Shown here in pieces: positions 28,693-63,285 of a stretch of DNA of 64,000 bases (positions within the stretch are counted from its first letter, which is position 1; every line of letters starts with the position of its first letter). Origin of the DNA: Lachnospiraceae bacterium (GTDB taxonomy: Bacteria > Bacillota > Clostridia > Lachnospirales > Lachnospiraceae); contig JAEEYF010000030.1 of the NCBI GenBank assembly GCA_016291655.1, positions 28,945-92,944 of the forward strand, in the 5' to 3' direction. Made by a program: the position numbers and the translations under genes. The notes below the pieces were generated by a model. The model did not search any database, was not told the DNA's origin, and worked only from the letters and a program-made list of their open reading frames with translations.

Positions 28693-29634
28693 TCAGCCCT
28701 TTACCGAACCGACGGTAAGGCCTTTGACAAAGTATTTCTGGAAGAACGGATAGGCAACCATTATAGGAGCTATGACAACTATAACCGTTGCCATTGTTGC
28801 CGAGTTCTTCGGGATGTTTCCGCCCATGGCGTCTCTTACTGCCTGAGGGACGTTGTTGCTGTTCAGAAGGAAGTCAATGTTCTTCTGAATGTTGTAAAGC
28901 AGGAGCTGCAAAGGCTTCAATGAGTTTTTGTCGATGTAGAGAACCGCGTTCTGCCAATCGTTCCAATAAGCCGTTGCCATCATGAAACCGACTGCCGCAA
29001 GAGAGGGCTTCATCAAGGGAAGACAGATGGTGAAGAATGTTCTGCCCTCGCCCGCTCCGTCGATCTTCGCCGCTTCCATGAGCTCTGCGGGTATGCTGTT
29101 TACAATGTAGGTCCTTAAGATCAACACGTTCATTGTCGTAACGCAGAGCGGAAGTATAAGGATCAAAAGATTGTTTTTAAGGTGATAGTAATTGGTAAAT
29201 ACGATGTAACCCGCCAACTGTCCGCCGTTAAAGAGCATCGGAATGATCAGGTAGATCGATAAAAACTTTGCAAGTCTGAAGCCCGGACGGCTGATCGCAT
29301 ATGCATACATGCTCATGACCAAAAGTCCGAAGGCAGTTCCGGCTATAACGATGAAGATCGTTACGCAATATGAGTTAACAAGCTGTGTACCGTATTTGAG
29401 CACCGAGTGCATACCGTCCATCGACAGGCTGTCGGGGAAAAAGCTGAAACCCTTCGCGCTGATGGATTTCTCCGAAGAGAAGGCTACTATGAACACGAGC
29501 AGAACGGGAAGTGCGCAAAAGAGCGTGTACAGCAGGAGGAAAAAACCGAGGATATATTGTCCGGGAGTCTTCTTTACCTTGTCCTTGAACTCTTTTTCTT
29601 TTTTGCTTTTGCTTAATGTCTTTTCGGTATCCAT
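28693..29634 (-). CDS. Sugar ABC transporter permease (YtcP/LplC-like)
   Basis: 313 residues with six hydrophobic segments starting near residue 30 (ILGFFLLLYTLFCALPVLLV), and the coupling motif MEAAKIDGAGEGRTFFTICLP. The C terminus FFQKYFVKGLTVGSVKG is typical of the LplC/YtcP group of CUT1 permeases. AAGGAGGG precedes the ATG, and that sequence overlaps the stop codon region of the upstream permease. It pairs with the next gene to form the membrane channel. Confidence 0.93.
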   Translation of the reverse strand: MDTEKTLSKSKKEKEFKDKVKKTPGQYILGFFLLLYTLFCALPVLLVFIVAFSSEKSISAKGFSFFPDSLSMDGMHSVLKYGTQLVNSYCVTIFIVIAGTAFGLLVMSMYAYAISRPGFRLAKFLSIYLIIPMLFNGGQLAGYIVFTNYYHLKNNLLILILPLCVTTMNVLILRTYIVNSIPAELMEAAKIDGAGEGRTFFTICLPLMKPSLAAVGFMMATAYWNDWQNAVLYIDKNSLKPLQLLLYNIQKNIDFLLNSNNVPQAVRDAMGGNIPKNSATMATVIVVIAPIMVAYPFFQKYFVKGLTVGSVKG

Positions 29635-37826: not shown

Positions 37827-37876
37827 TTGAAAAACATAACTGAATATGAAAGAAAAGAAAAAACAAAATATTATGT

Positions 37877-38081
37877 CTGTTCACACCGCCCTAACGCTCA
37901 TACGATGGGGTCCCTCCCCTGCTTCGCAGCGGTCCTCCCCATTGTCGTGAATTCGCAATCCGCTACGCTACTTGCTCATTAAGCGGGGGCGGTTACTGCT
38001 ACGCAGAATATGCAGTGTGCTGAAACTCTTTGAAAGCAAGCTTTCAGAGTTTTAGCACACTGCATATCTGTGAACAGTAAC
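37877..38081. repeat. Large intergenic folded element S1
   Basis: CTGTTCACA (37877-37885) pairs with TGTGAACAG (38069-38077), and GTTACTG (37992-37998) with CAGTAAC (38075-38081), as alternatives. Inside, ATATGCAGTGTGCT, AAACTCT and GAAAGC (38008-38037) fold back on their complements (38038-38067) to form a 60-base hairpin. The left half holds CTGCTTCGCAG and a 25-base module (37953-37977) shared in reverse orientation with element S2. No gene is seen in the 410 bases between pckA and the chemotaxis receptor. Confidence 0.75.
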
Positions 38082-38181
38082 AATTATGTTAAAAAAAATG
38101 AAAAAAACTAAAAAAATAGTATAAAATAAAGCAAATTTATGATAAAGTTATAATTAATATTACAACTTGGAGGAACTTATT

Positions 38182-58205: not shown

Positions 58206-60002
58206 ATGGCACAGGAATTAAAAAAACGCAGCGAAGTTGCTGTGGAAAACACTTGGAAACTTGAAGACATATACAAAGATAAGGCCGCATGGGAAGCTGA
58301 ACTTAAGGAGATCGAAAAGATCATCGATAAGATCGCGGCGATGAAGGGCAAGCTTTGCGAAAGCGGAAAGTCCTTATATGCCTACTATGAAAATCTGGAA
58401 ATCTTCGCACAGAAGATCGAGAAAGCATTTAACTATACGTCCCGCCTTTCGGACCAGGACACAAAGAATGCGGAGAACCAGGCGCTTGATATGAAGATGG
58501 AAAGCTTCTATCACAGCATGATTGAGAAGATATCCTTCACGGAGCCTGAAATCCTGGCAGGTCTCACGACCAAGCTGGACGAGCTGTACAAGGACGAGCC
58601 GAAGCTTCACGAGTTCGATGTGGAGATCAAGGAAAGTCTCCGTACAAAGGATCACACACTTTCTCCCGAAATGGAAAATCTCCTTGCATCCGCAAGTGAA
58701 GTGCTTGGCTGTGCGGGAACGACTTTTGGCATGTTCAACAATGCAGACGTTGTATTCCCGGAGATCACGGACGATAAGGGCGAGAAGATCCGTATTACAC
58801 ACGGAAGGTACAGAATGCTCCTTGAGAATCCCGATGTAAGGGTTCGTAAGGATATGTTCGAGAATTACTATAAGATGTTCATAGATTACAAGAACACGCT
58901 TGCGTCCAACTATCAGGCGCATGTAAAGGGGCATGTGTTCATGGCTAAAGCGAGAAAATATGCTTCTGCCCTTGAGCGCGGCGTTCAGATCAACAACGTT
59001 TCTCCTCAGGTTTACAAGAATCTCCTTGATGTCGTAAACAAGAACATGGACAAGATGCACCGCTATATGGCTATCCGTAAGAAGGTGCTCGGCCTTAAGG
59101 AACAGCATATGTATGACCTGTTCATACCGCTTGTGGAGGGGGTTGACAAGAAGATCCCCTTTGAAGAGGCTAAGCAGATGGTGCTTGAGGCGCTTGCACC
59201 CATGGGCGAGGAGTATCTCTCCGTGATCAAGAGAGCGCTGAACGAGCGCTGGATCGACATATATGAGAATGAAGGAAAGAGAAGCGGCGCATATTCAGCC
59301 GGAGTATACGGAGTTCATCCCTATGTCCTCCTGAACTATGACGGCGGTCTTGATTCGGTATTCACTCTCATCCACGAGCTGGGACATGCTATGCACTCCT
59401 ATTTCTCGGCGCAGGCACAGACCTGCCTCCATGCGGATTACAAGATCTTCGTGGCCGAGGTGGCATCCACCTGCAATGAGGCGCTTCTCACAAGGTACCT
59501 CCTGAGCAAGACAACGGACAAGAAGGAACGTGCATATATCATCAACCATATGCTGGATGACTTCAGAACCACTCTTTATCGTCAGGCCATGTTTGCAGAG
59601 TTTGAATACAAGACACATGAGATGGTTGAAAACGGAATGAGCCTGACAGCAGACGCACTTTCCAAGCTTTACTACGAACTCAACGTGAAGTACTACGGCG
59701 ATGCGGTTGTGAGCGATCCCCAGATTGCATATGAGTGGTCGAGAATCCCTCACTTCTTCTACAACTTCTACGTTTATCAGTATTCCACAGGTTATTCGGC
59801 AGCCCTTGCGCTCAGCAACAGGATCCTGACCGAAGGCAAGCCTGCTGTGGAGGATTACTTCAAGTTCCTTCGCGGCGGCTGCACCATGTCTCCTACCGAC
59901 CTGCTCAAGGTTGCCGGCGTCGACATGACAAGTCCCAAGCCGATCGAGGATGCTCTGCAGATCTTCTCGGATATGATGGACGACTTTGAAAAATGCATAT
60001 AA
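58206..60002 (+). CDS. pepF: Oligoendopeptidase F (M3 family)
   Basis: 598 residues, M3B oligopeptidase. Zinc motif HELGHAMHS (His390, Glu391, His394) with the third ligand Glu in AEVASTCNEALL. Also VHPYVLLNYDGGLDSVFTL before the zinc helix and FYVYQYSTGYSAALALS after it, both typical of PepF. It degrades medium-length peptides in the cytosol, a fitting partner for the two peptide importers in this window. AGAAAGAGG precedes the ATG. Element S2 begins 9 bases after the stop. Confidence 0.97.
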   Translation: MAQELKKRSEVAVENTWKLEDIYKDKAAWEAELKEIEKIIDKIAAMKGKLCESGKSLYAYYENLEIFAQKIEKAFNYTSRLSDQDTKNAENQALDMKMESFYHSMIEKISFTEPEILAGLTTKLDELYKDEPKLHEFDVEIKESLRTKDHTLSPEMENLLASASEVLGCAGTTFGMFNNADVVFPEITDDKGEKIRITHGRYRMLLENPDVRVRKDMFENYYKMFIDYKNTLASNYQAHVKGHVFMAKARKYASALERGVQINNVSPQVYKNLLDVVNKNMDKMHRYMAIRKKVLGLKEQHMYDLFIPLVEGVDKKIPFEEAKQMVLEALAPMGEEYLSVIKRALNERWIDIYENEGKRSGAYSAGVYGVHPYVLLNYDGGLDSVFTLIHELGHAMHSYFSAQAQTCLHADYKIFVAEVASTCNEALLTRYLLSKTTDKKERAYIINHMLDDFRTTLYRQAMFAEFEYKTHEMVENGMSLTADALSKLYYELNVKYYGDAVVSDPQIAYEWSRIPHFFYNFYVYQYSTGYSAALALSNRILTEGKPAVEDYFKFLRGGCTMSPTDLLKVAGVDMTSPKPIEDALQIFSDMMDDFEKCI

Positions 60003-60010
60003 TTACTGAA

Positions 60011-60146
60011 GCTGCCGTAAACGGCATATGAAACTTCGTTTCATATGTATCGGCACAAATAAGGTCCGCTCTCGCAAACGCAGTTTGCAGAGACGGCCCT
60101 TTTTTGTGCTAATCTAGCGACAAAGTCGCTAGATACCGTTTACAGC
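60011..60146. repeat. Cloverleaf-like intergenic element S2
   Basis: Outer stem GTAAACGG (60017-60024) with CCGTTTAC (60136-60143). Inside are hairpin A (CATATGAAAC, TTC loop, GTTTCATATG), hairpin B (GCACAAA ... CCG CTCT c GCAAAC / GTTTGC AGAG a CGG ... TTTGTGC, 60053-60109) and hairpin C (CTAGCGAC, AAA, GTCGCTAG). The B hairpin is followed by TTTTTT and may terminate pepF. Architecture matches element S3. Confidence 0.85.
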
Positions 60147-60162
60147 AGCGAAGGCTATTACC

Positions 60163-60230
60163 CCCGCCCCGACACACGAGCAAGAAGCGAAGCGGATTGC
60201 GAGTGAAAAATGCGCTCCCGCCCCGACACA
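60163..60230 (+). repeat. Module shared with S1, flanked by direct repeats
   Basis: GAGCAAGAAGCGAAGCGGAT and the next five bases (60178-60202) match the reverse complement of 37953-37977 at 23 of 25 positions. CCCGCCCCGACACA occurs on both sides (60163-60176 and 60217-60230) as a 14-base direct repeat. Confidence 0.8.
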
Positions 60231-60270
60231 ATTCTTCGCTTTATAAGCTAACTAATTTACAAAAATCATA

Positions 60271-60299
60271 TTGACAAATCGTTGTCAGTGTTCTACAAT
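60271..60299 (+). promoter_or_regulatory. greA promoter
   Basis: TTGACA (60271-60276), 17 bases, TACAAT (60294-60299). Confidence 0.85.
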
Positions 60300-60331
60300 A
60301 TTTTGACTCTAAATAGAAATGGAGATAAACG

Positions 60332-60814
60332 ATGGCTGAAGTTAAGAAAAATTTGATGACCTATGAGCATCTTAAAGAGCTTGAGACTGAGCTTGAAGAT
60401 CTCAAGGTAAACAGAAGAAGAGAGATTGCCGACAAGATCAAAGAGGCAAGAGAACAAGGTGACCTTTCCGAGAATGCCGAATATGATGCGGCTAAGGATG
60501 AGCAGAGGGATATCGAAGCCAGGATCGAGCAGATCGAGGGTATTCTCAAAAATGCTGAAATCGCAGATGATGAGGATTTCAAGGGCGGTAAGATTAACTT
60601 TGGTTGCAGAGTAACAATTCTCGATGTGGAATTTAATGATACTTTGGAGTATAAGATCGTTGGTTCTACCGAAGCAAACATCTTAAAGGGACTCATTTCC
60701 AACGAATCTCCTCTCGGTGTTGCATTGCTCGGACACAAAAAGAATGATGTTATTGAAATTGAATCACCTGAAGGCTTTATTAAGTATAAAGTGTTAAAAG
60801 TGGAAAAAGGTTGA
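60332..60814 (+). CDS. greA: Transcription elongation factor GreA
   Basis: 160 residues. N-terminal coiled coil (MTYEHLKELETELEDLKVNR, REQGDLSENAEYDAAKDEQ) with the acidic tip Asp/Glu residues that reach the RNA polymerase active site, and a C-terminal FKBP-like domain with GSTEANILKGLISNESPLG. It stimulates transcript cleavage by backtracked polymerase. ATGGAGAT is the probable RBS. In many Firmicutes greA stands upstream of lysS, as here, but with a phosphoesterase gene and element S3 between. Confidence 0.98.
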   Translation: MAEVKKNLMTYEHLKELETELEDLKVNRRREIADKIKEAREQGDLSENAEYDAAKDEQRDIEARIEQIEGILKNAEIADDEDFKGGKINFGCRVTILDVEFNDTLEYKIVGSTEANILKGLISNESPLGVALLGHKKNDVIEIESPEGFIKYKVLKVEKG

Positions 60815-60819
60815 TAATG

Positions 60820-60845
60820 AGCCCCCGATTTTTGGGGGCTTTATT
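60820..60845 (+). terminator. greA terminator
   Basis: AGCCCCC, seven-base loop, GGGGGCT, then TTATT. It lies only 18 bases before the next gene; some read-through is likely because I see no separate promoter there. Confidence 0.8.
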
Positions 60846-60862
60846 GTTTGAAAGGGCATACT

Positions 60863-61327
60863 ATGAAAATACTTGTATTATCCGATTCTCACGGAAAAGA
60901 AGGATATGTGTATGATATTATGCGTGCCAATACGGACGTTAATGCCGTAATACATCTGGGAGACGGGGAAGACGATATGGGACTTGCTCTTGCCGAGCTG
61001 CCGGCTTTCAGGAATAAACCGGTTTATCAGGTGCGTGGGAATTGCGATCCGGAAGGATTGCCTCAGTGCCGGTTTGAAAACATCGGCGGGTTCAGGTTTT
61101 ATATTACCCACGGGCATATGCAACAGGTGAAATACGGGAAGTTTAAACTGCTGGGCGATGCCAGAAAGATGGATCGCAACGTTGTGTTGTTCGGGCATAC
61201 GCATTCACAGTTTTTGGAGGAATACGACGGCACGTGGCTCTTTAATCCCGGCGCGGTCGTGAACTTGAACTACGGAGTGATTTCGATAAACGAAGCGAAA
61301 CACGAGATAGGGTTTGAGCACTTTTGA
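60863..61327 (+). CDS. YfcE/YsnB-type metallophosphoesterase
   Basis: The ATG at 60863 follows GAAAGGG; an upstream TTG is rejected. 154 residues, a compact two-metal phosphoesterase: VLSDSHG, HLGDGEDD, RGNCD, THGH and FGHTH motifs in order. Members hydrolyse bis-p-nitrophenyl phosphate in vitro or act on phosphodiesters; the cellular substrate is unknown. Probably expressed by read-through from greA. Confidence 0.92.
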   Translation: MKILVLSDSHGKEGYVYDIMRANTDVNAVIHLGDGEDDMGLALAELPAFRNKPVYQVRGNCDPEGLPQCRFENIGGFRFYITHGHMQQVKYGKFKLLGDARKMDRNVVLFGHTHSQFLEEYDGTWLFNPGAVVNLNYGVISINEAKHEIGFEHF

Positions 61328-61380
61328 GACAATGATGAGGGGAGGAAAAGGTGAAGGGGAGAACTGTAGGAAATAAAGTT

Positions 61381-61528
61381 TTGTCGGGAATGTCATGGGC
61401 ACGTGAAATTTCATTTCACGTGTTTAAAAAGGCAAATAGCCCGCTCTCGCAAATGAATTTGCGGAGACGGGCCTTTTGCCTTTTAACCATGTAAGCGGAG
61501 CTTACATGGCCCATGACATCCCGGACAA
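61381..61528. repeat. Cloverleaf-like intergenic element S3
   Basis: Outer stem of 19 positions with two mismatches (61381-61399 with 61510-61528, including perfect ATGTCATGGG/CCCATGACAT). Inside are hairpin A (CACGTGAAAT, TTC, ATTTCACGTG), hairpin B (AAAAGGCAAA ... GCCCG CTCT c GCAAAT / ATTTGC GGAG a CGGGC ... TTTGCCTTTT, 61427-61484) and hairpin C (CATGTAAGC, GGA, GCTTACATG). No coding potential in the 340 bases between the flanking genes. Confidence 0.87.
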
Positions 61529-61603
61529 AACTGAATTCACACTCCCCCCTGCTCCGCATCCTACCCTTCACTCTTTTCAAACCGCCTCAAGCTATTGACT
61601 CAC

Positions 61604-61632
61604 TTGACAAACCCCTGCCGCTGATGTAAAAT
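61604..61632 (+). promoter_or_regulatory. lysS promoter
   Basis: TTGACA (61604-61609), 17 bases, TAAAAT (61627-61632). The leader is about 30 bases, so no T-box fits. Confidence 0.85.
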
Positions 61633-61668
61633 TTCCAAATTAGTTTAAAAAATATAGGAGGGACCGAA

Positions 61669-63285
61669 ATGGCCGAAAATAATCAGAACAGGAACGAGCA
61701 GGCACCACAGCAGGATGTGAACCAGCTTCGCAAGGTGCGTCGCGAAAAGCTCGCAGCGCTTCAGGAAGCGGGACGTGATCCTTTCAGGCACACAAAATTT
61801 GACGTTGAACAGCATACGGACGAAGTCAAAAAGCTTTATGAGGAGCATGAGGCGAAGAAACTCGCAGGCAGAACAGCTCCTGTAACGGACGGCATGGACG
61901 AAGCAGCGGCCAGAGAAGTCCTTAAGGCAGATTATAATGAAATACGCGCCATCATGGATGCTGAGCCTATCCACGTTTCCGTTGCGGGACGTATGATGTT
62001 CAAGCGCGTAATGGGTAAGGCTTCCTTCGCAAACATCCGTGATCTCAAGGGAGACATTCAGGTTTATGTTTCCAGAGATGCACTCGGTGAGGAAGCATAT
62101 GCAGAATTCAAAAAGTCAGACTTAGGCGATATCTACGGCGTTAAGGGCTACATCTTCAGGACTATGACCGGTGAAGTCTCCATCCACGCCGAGGAAATGA
62201 CTCTTCTCAGCAAGAGCCTTCAGGTGCTCCCCGAGAAGTTCCACGGACTTACCGATCAGGATATGAAGTATCGTCAGAGATACGTTGACCTCATCATGAA
62301 TCCCGAATCCAGAGACGTGTTTGTAAAGCGTTCTCAGATCATCCGCGAGATCCGTAATTTCCTTGCGGACCGCAATTTCATGGAGGTTGAAACACCCATG
62401 CTCGTTGCCAACGCAGGCGGAGCGGCTGCAAGACCTTTCATCACCCACTACAACGCATTAAACGAGGATTTCAAACTCAGAATTTCCCTTGAGCTTTACT
62501 TAAAGAGACTCATCGTCGGCGGTCTCGAGCGCGTGTTTGAGATTGGTCGTGTGTTCAGAAATGAAGGCCTGGACACCAGACACAACCCTGAGTTCACCCT
62601 CATGGAGCTTTATCAGGCATATACGGACTATGAAGGTATGATGGAACTTACCGAGAGCATGTTCCGTTACCTGGCAGAGAAGGTGCTCAGAACCACCAAG
62701 TTCAAGTACGGCGATGTAGAACTTGACTTCGGAAAGCCTTTCCGCCGTCTCACCATGACAGACGCCGTGAAGGAATATGCAGGCATAGACTTTGACAAGG
62801 TTGCTACGGACGAAGAGGCAAAGAAGCTCGCCGACGAACATCACATCGAGTACCAGAAGTTCCACACCAAGGGTGATATCCTTAACCTTTTCTTTGAAGA
62901 GTATTGCGAAGAAAAGCTTGTACAGCCCACTTTTGTAATGGATCATCCTCTTGCTATCTCTCCTCTTACCAAGAAGAAGCCGGACGATCCCAACAAGGTT
63001 GAACGTTTTGAGCTTTTCATCAACACATGGGAAATGTGCAACGCCTACTCCGAGCTCAACGATCCCATCGATCAGCGTGAGCGTTTTGCTGCACAGGATA
63101 GAAATGCGGACGCAGGTGACGAAGAAGCCGAGCATACAGATGAAGATTTCCTGAATGCCCTCGAGATCGGCATGCCTCCGACGGGTGGTATCGGTTACGG
63201 TATCGACAGACTGGTAATGCTGCTCACCGACAGCCAGGCGATAAGGGATGTACTTTGCTTCCCGACACTAAAGTCGTTGAGTTAA
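61669..63285 (+). CDS. lysS: Lysyl-tRNA synthetase, class II
   Basis: 538 residues. N-terminal OB-fold anticodon domain, extended by about 40 residues (VTDGMDEAAAREVLKADYNE and neighbours, about 72-105), then the class II core: motif 1 around RNFLADRNFMEVETPML, motif 2 VFRNEGLDTRHNPEFTLME and motif 3 GGIGYGIDRLVMLL. Length otherwise fits LysS (~495-505). AGGAGGG lies before the ATG. Monocistronic, ended by a GC-rich hairpin. Confidence 0.97.
   Translation: MAENNQNRNEQAPQQDVNQLRKVRREKLAALQEAGRDPFRHTKFDVEQHTDEVKKLYEEHEAKKLAGRTAPVTDGMDEAAAREVLKADYNEIRAIMDAEPIHVSVAGRMMFKRVMGKASFANIRDLKGDIQVYVSRDALGEEAYAEFKKSDLGDIYGVKGYIFRTMTGEVSIHAEEMTLLSKSLQVLPEKFHGLTDQDMKYRQRYVDLIMNPESRDVFVKRSQIIREIRNFLADRNFMEVETPMLVANAGGAAARPFITHYNALNEDFKLRISLELYLKRLIVGGLERVFEIGRVFRNEGLDTRHNPEFTLMELYQAYTDYEGMMELTESMFRYLAEKVLRTTKFKYGDVELDFGKPFRRLTMTDAVKEYAGIDFDKVATDEEAKKLADEHHIEYQKFHTKGDILNLFFEEYCEEKLVQPTFVMDHPLAISPLTKKKPDDPNKVERFELFINTWEMCNAYSELNDPIDQRERFAAQDRNADAGDEEAEHTDEDFLNALEIGMPPTGGIGYGIDRLVMLLTDSQAIRDVLCFPTLKSLS

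Follow-up and report, generated by a model that had tools for sequence, protein, structure and literature searches.

Two intergenic foldbacks in the genome of a Lachnospiraceae bacterium have the shape of a cloverleaf in common, and the initial annotation attributed the paired differences between them to selection for an RNA fold within the mRNAs of pepF and the phosphoesterase. The elements, called S2 and S3 here, lie in the window, which is the whole stretch of 64,000 nucleotides that was analyzed (positions 28,945 to 92,944 of contig JAEEYF010000030.1). The question they raise is whether a fold that keeps its pairing while its sequence changes is at work as RNA in these transcripts, or whether it belongs to DNA that disperses through genomes.

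Structure and Setting of the Two Elements

S2 occupies 60011..60149 and S3 61378..61531, both on the + strand and both read directly and folded; under the covariance model R2 introduced below they score 97.7 and 116.5 bits, respectively. The strand given for S2 is the one bearing the CGCTCT core. The locations first proposed stand, while the ends needed correction: S2 had been closed at 60146, 3 nt short of 60149, and S3, given as 61381-61528, extends over 61378-61531.

In S2, the fold pairs the left arm of the outer stem (60011..60024, +) with its right arm (60136..60149, +) as GCTGC-C-GTAAACGG / CCGTTTAC-A-GCAGC. Sequence and fold together place three + strand hairpins between these arms: hairpin A (60025..60047; 10 bp with a TTC loop, CATATGAAAC-TTC-GTTTCATATG), hairpin B (60052..60110), whose stem has two opposed single-base bulges (CTCT-C-GCAAA / TTTGC-AGAG-A-CGG), and hairpin C (60112..60134; 10 bp with an AAA loop). 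S3 is built likewise on the + strand, with folded outer arms at 61378..61399 and 61510..61531 and, again from sequence and fold, hairpin A at 61400..61422 (10 bp, TTC loop), hairpin B at 61427..61484 with the same bulged core as that of S2, and hairpin C at 61487..61509 (10 bp, GGA loop). Reading and folding confirm the originally described outer stem with three hairpins in the same order; the stem sequences, and the bulged C and bulged A of hairpin B, are as reported in both elements, and hairpin C, said to be common only in shape, is unrelated in sequence between them. Outer-stem sequence is not common to S2 and S3 either, and inverted ends are present in both. The MFE is -78.6 kcal/mol for S2 and -94.2 kcal/mol for S3, with z-scores of -10.5 and -14.9, and none of 200 shuffles folded equally well.

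S2 lies between a PepF-like frame and greA, and S3 between a phosphoesterase-like frame and lysS, these being provisional names read from the translations. As the initial annotation had it, each follows the stop codon of a + strand frame: S2 starts 8 nt after the PepF-like stop (frame end 60002), and 50 nt separate S3 from the phosphoesterase-like stop (frame end 61327). Downstream of S2, at 60160-60210, stands CCCCCGCCCCGACACACGAGCAAGAAGCGAAGCGGATTGCGAGT, which is like part of a second foldback of the window (37870-38084, see below) and part of the foldback found at the same site in the relative G001. S3 is flanked by an imperfect inverted repeat (GAAAAGGTGAAGGG / CCCTTCACTCTTTTC; 61345-61578) with arms about 200 bp apart.

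Further Copies in the Genome, Genus, and Family

The initial annotation knew no family of this description. In agreement with this, the whole window gave no Rfam match at the gathering threshold, and in an E-value scan of 59900-61700 each of the 12 matches fell under the gathering score of its own family. The covariance-model search that it had proposed did find further copies, in the genome, the genus, and the family. The genome of the window has a third copy (G000:C8:561-683), which follows a glycyl-tRNA-synthetase-like frame; upstream of this copy (L046), its left outer arm is tandemly repeated in GATGTTCAAAG / GATGTTCAAG units, on one side only. A first model, R1, was built from these three copies; of 61 genomes, 5 had matches to it, and every one of the five belongs to the genus of the window. 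The second model, R2, was built from the 15-copy alignment A5 (14 copies of the genus and one of Lachnospiraceae bacterium RM5), which leaves out G006:C189 (part of the earlier alignment A4), G003:C13, G004:C139, and three matches of the R1 search that belong to a sister class (L049, L051, L053).

R2 detected copies in six of the seven genomes of the genus; its 33 matches in RM5, counted on both strands, fall at 20 places. Among the family genomes, 32 of 397 had a match at E <= 0.01, and in seven, the genome of the window and six others, multiple places scored above 50 bits; the weaker single matches may in many cases be other long hairpins. The family scan scored 8 candidates per genome, so that copy numbers are lower bounds. 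In the class, six of 391 genomes had a match at E <= 1e-4, all in the family of the window (f1, taken to be Lachnospiraceae), whose share of the sample is not given. The elements are non-coding, multi-copy, and about 110-200 bp in size. Among the 70 whose DNA was fetched, a set smaller than all that exist, 63 share fewer than 40 nt with any open frame of >=200 codons, and 7 share >=40 nt with one.

Exact matching reached less far. The exact pattern of the conserved core occurs in 30 stretches of the genome contigs, one of which (in RM5) has the cloverleaf fold. The other 29 were rejected as family copies since their folds, as read, are not of this kind; L091, one of the exact-core stretches, follows a stop codon and forms a single long hairpin. 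When the exact core was extended slightly and sought in 98 relatives, it matched only the genome of the window. S3 had no match in plasmid and phage collections, and LysS was not found in viral contigs.

Covariation and What Is Conserved

Two copies alone say little about covariation; the 15 copies show it. In their alignment, 47 of the 54 pairs are changed on both sides, compared with 30.4 in shuffles, the covariation score is 0.565 (0.189 in shuffles and 0.079-0.152 in slid controls), and 85.7% of the cells in the four helices pair. None of 500 shuffles reached any of five covariation measures. The covariation test suggested by the initial annotation thus comes out above its shuffled controls.

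Within species (RM5, G332, G351, G285, G101), the copies have hairpin sequences in common. Between species, nearly all of the sequence is replaced, and what is kept is the order of the helices and a few bases near the junction. Away from the junction, most of the outer-stem sequence is copy-specific and yet complementary (genus, RM5, G332, G351). The bulged core of hairpin B is retained in many copies between species, from RM5 to the genus of the window; by a simple pattern and a hand count, its strict CTC/GAG form is present in 26 of 70 copies. This hints at the bulges of hairpin B as a candidate protein site.

Strand Symmetry and the Case for RNA

The reading of the elements as structured RNA in 3' untranslated regions, be it a terminator, an mRNA stabilizer, or a processing site selected for its fold, draws on the very strong covariation of the 15 copies, on the position of both window copies and some relatives directly after a stop codon, and on folds that are stable under RNA parameters. 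A fold that works as RNA would be expected to tolerate G-U better than A-C on the transcribed strand. Mismatches were therefore counted after folding with G-U forbidden, so that G-T and A-C both score as mismatches; six copies nearly identical to others (L171-L174, L187, L188) were removed before the three counts that follow, which left 64 of 70. For 41 copies flanked by frames in the same direction, the mRNA strand has 29 G-T and 39 A-C; for 37 copies that have a stop codon no more than 80 nt away, and on just one side, the numbers are 25 and 37, and for all 64 copies in the orientation of the model they are 56 and 63. With the near-identical copies retained, 1x1 mismatches number 34 G-T and 35 A-C. 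On the strand presumed to be mRNA, G-T mismatches do not outnumber A-C mismatches. Nine tRNAs gave 10 G-T and 1 A-C (Fisher p 0.009 vs 56:63), a small control that used fixed stems rather than the folding method applied to the elements.

Orientation is no more one-sided. In 43 tandem contexts, 24 copies have one orientation and 19 the other by the strand of the model, which is uncertain for some copies. Fifteen of 63 callable contexts are divergent and 5 convergent, with 7 not callable; the frames are mechanical ORF calls, those overlapping an element by >=20 nt having been dropped before neighbors were named. At least two of the divergent calls (G001 and G002, at the site of a biotin-carrier-like frame) may be miscalled, G003 being tandem there. 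An intrinsic terminator was considered separately and rejected: the T runs, of six in S2 and four in S3, are part of the hairpin B stem and do not follow a hairpin, and copies in divergent contexts are at odds with it.

Orientation, mismatch counts, and the tRNA control set an RNA function in the 3' untranslated region aside as the main reading. The pepF-greA interval of the relative G004, which has no foldback, and the terminal repeats and target duplications in the genomes G221 and G285, both treated below, weigh against it as well, and we consider it unlikely. Selection for an RNA fold within the mRNAs of pepF and the phosphoesterase, as the initial annotation had it, is not supported.

Terminal Repeats and Target Duplications

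The clearest signs of movement come from G221. There, five of the fetched copies stand in unrelated surroundings and yet agree at 92-99% identity over some 195 bp, and the elements end in a 19-bp terminal inverted repeat, TTTGAGTTTCCCCATTTTT, to which this genome has 126 matches (<=3 mismatches) compared with 3 for the reversed control. Exact target duplications of 8-10 bp stand at 14 of 19 distinct elements by hand reading, five copies having been aligned; the 19 are those that could be delimited in 30 fetched loci, and they range from 61 to 198 bp with short derivatives included. Among the derivatives with duplications, L220 is without hairpin C, L239 without most of hairpin B, and L217, L227, and L234 without all three hairpins. 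For these derivatives of 61-63, 154, and 170 bp, the duplication is exact in L217, L227, L239, and L220, and agrees in 8 of 9 bases in L234. They either moved in a form without the cloverleaf or lost it by slippage after insertion; that two short derivatives have a deletion junction in common leans toward movement in the short form. If they did move short, the cloverleaf is dispensable for movement there. Since derivatives without the cloverleaf carry duplications, mobility alone does not explain why the cloverleaf is conserved.

An autonomous parent of the G221 elements was sought among loci with unpaired ends, and one fragment was found. L229:1017-1519 encodes the C-terminal part of an IS4-like transposase, the stop codon of which overlaps the terminal repeat of the G221 family; its best profile matches (NCBIfam NF033590, E 5e-7; Pfam DDE_Tnp_1, 6e-4) are both below the cut-offs, and a PDB sequence search gave no match. 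At two contig ends of G221 (L219, L231), another transposase-like frame (start MARPRKYIISLTEDEFKELKS), possibly of the IS630 type, apparently interrupts the element at a TA that separates hairpin B from hairpin C; a 20-residue piece of this frame had no Pfam match.

In G285, the outer stem itself forms the shared 17-bp ends, and exact 7-bp duplications border three of four delimited copies. The sister class (G000, G001), with ends GTTACTGTTCAC, shows an exact duplication of 8 bp in 3 of 16 rows, and its 12-base end has 71 matches in the genome of the window (<=1 mismatch) compared with 8 for the reversed control. It also folds with several hairpins, its R2 matches being weak and on either strand. 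The second foldback of the window, at 37870-38084, is of this class: its outer arms are TGTTCACA/TGTGAACA, it has a long nested hairpin with a GAGCAAGTAGCGTAGCGGATTGCG-like repeat, and its right end is one of the 71 matches. Elsewhere, sister-class left ends stand in rows (L126, G000:C15:97420-97920, with three within about 50 bp, and L124), as if nested insertions had been followed by partial loss.

For S2, S3, the remaining copies of their class in the genus, and the RM5 copies, the search for target duplications gave none. A duplication scan of 68 elements, two without 100-nt flanks being excluded, was positive for four of G221 and two of G285 only. The mobility of S2 and S3 themselves is therefore something that we infer, and the two are not filed as proven MITEs.

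These observations also bear on a further explanation, in which the elements are single-stranded or cruciform DNA sites for a protein such as a REP-like HUH transposase or a recombinase, with hairpin B recognized and the fold directly selected. That the bulged core recurs from RM5 to the genus, in a stem that is otherwise replaced, speaks for it, and the equal G-T and A-C counts fit action at the DNA level. The movement that is visible, however, resembles that of DDE transposons, with terminal repeats and 7-10-bp duplications, and G221 elements without a cloverleaf have duplications too, which makes such a site a quite improbable account. The REP elements of RAYT transposases bear a GTAG or CGTC tag, according to an excerpt of PMC3733652.

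The Same Sites in Relatives and the Origin of Paired Changes

At both window sites, G001 has foldbacks of the sister class (pepF-greA in L056; phosphoesterase-lysS in L056 and L139), and in G004 the pepF frame is separated from that of greA by some 65 nt in which no foldback lies. The elements are thus neither required nor stable at the two sites. Where elements do stand beside the same gene in different species, they may descend from one old insertion or from separate ones.

Comparison of such same-gene elements shows how the paired changes are distributed. Beside the frame ending in SSWNMPLA, G001 and G002 differ by 17 paired and 3 one-sided changes, and beside the biotin-carrier-like frame G002 and G003 differ by 2 of each kind. 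Between identical stems, one loop is exactly inverted, being TTC in G002 and G003 and GAA in G001; hairpin B is inverted in G003 relative to G001 and G002, and at an mgsA-like frame the whole interior is inverted between G003 and G006. Two pairs that align poorly give a more mixed picture, with 5 paired, 9 one-sided, and 4 two-sided non-pairing changes in a more distant G002/G001 pair, and 6, 17, and 5, respectively, in an mgsA pair with the core on the same strand. The glyS-ppdK pair has five one-sided changes and none that is paired or two-sided. Among 17 recent G221 copies, 53 changes are one-sided and 3 two-sided, one of the three pairing; in the same copies, the rate of change per column in stems is about half that of unpaired positions (59 changes in 158 columns vs 29 in 38).

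Published work offers a source for such patterns. Template switching in the hairpins of RNA genes yields multi-base compensatory changes and loop inversion, as the available portion of PMC8794818 describes, and in inverted repeats it brings about arm homogenization and spacer inversion (PMC8604942, likewise in part). The same-gene differences match these signatures of switching between inverted-repeat arms, as far as the two partial sources set them out. Judged from the same portions, paired changes also arise in DNA inverted repeats, and covariation alone is therefore no proof of selection on RNA. The substrates there are RNA genes and yeast coding DNA, while the present family is a dispersed bacterial foldback; multi-base paired changes, arm homogenization, and the inversion of loops or spacers are common to these cases, again by what the excerpts contain. 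By the counts in G221 (53 vs 3) and in the glyS-ppdK pair (5 vs 0), single changes outpace the copying of one arm onto the other, and some of the covariation seen across the family may instead have its source in selection between lineages as they spread.

That the elements are immobile palindromes, made and kept by template switching alone, would account for the paired block changes, the exact loop inversion, and the inverted interiors beside the same genes, but near-identical copies with target duplications in unrelated places and hairpin sequences common to copies within species require dispersal, which largely refutes this account for G221 and G285 and leaves it very improbable overall.

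A Probably Mobile Foldback Family and Its Relation to Known Repeats

The strand symmetry of the mismatches, the orientation of the copies, and the target duplications point to mobile DNA despite the covariation. With a probability of roughly 0.7, S2 and S3 belong to a dispersed family of foldback DNA elements, likely MITEs moved in trans, whose cloverleaf is probably kept at the DNA level. A transposase acting in trans would move the small non-autonomous elements, and S2 and S3 would have arrived by transposition with no target duplication left around either. Template switching between the arms during replication may then have produced paired changes and inversions, and hairpin B with its bulges may have persisted in the lineages that spread, perhaps as a site to which a protein binds. 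A more specific version is a tentative proposal that we regard as possible rather than probable: folded DNA would be the working form of a mobile cloverleaf, its doubly bulged hairpin would be recognized by a protein, and its arms would be rewritten by template switching, giving RNA-like covariation without RNA.

Among known repeats, bcr1 is a folded repeat some 150 bp long, by description like the present family in size and folding, with a different host. It is a stem-loop family of Bacillus cereus, according to a passage of PMC2267715. The bacterial MITEs and small mobile repeats treated in the accessible part of PMC2229807 (Correia/NEMIS, ERIC, RUP) are alike in being about 100-200 bp long, multi-copy, foldback, and mostly outside long frames. 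MITE-like terminal inverted repeats and target duplications are seen in G221, G285, and the sister class. Most repeats of the MITE type form one stem loop by pairing of their ends, without arms, as that part of PMC2229807 states. Unlike Correia/NEMIS, ERIC, and RUP as portrayed there, the family of S2 and S3 has four helices meeting in a junction and keeps the order of its hairpins across genera while nearly all of the sequence is replaced. Many of its copies also have outer stems unique to themselves, and S2 and S3, whose outer stems are unrelated to each other, differ in this from transposons with ordinary ends. Among the matches listed in searches of open-licence papers on MITEs, cloverleaf or four-way foldbacks, bcr1, and Lachnospiraceae repeats, no description of this family was found. 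It is a cloverleaf, transposon-like family for which neither Rfam nor these literature matches held a name.

Covariation is widely taken as proof of functional RNA, and in this family 47 of 54 pairs covary. With its same-gene sites, where loops and interiors are inverted and paired changes come in blocks, the family offers a test set for how far template switching mimics RNA selection in bacteria.
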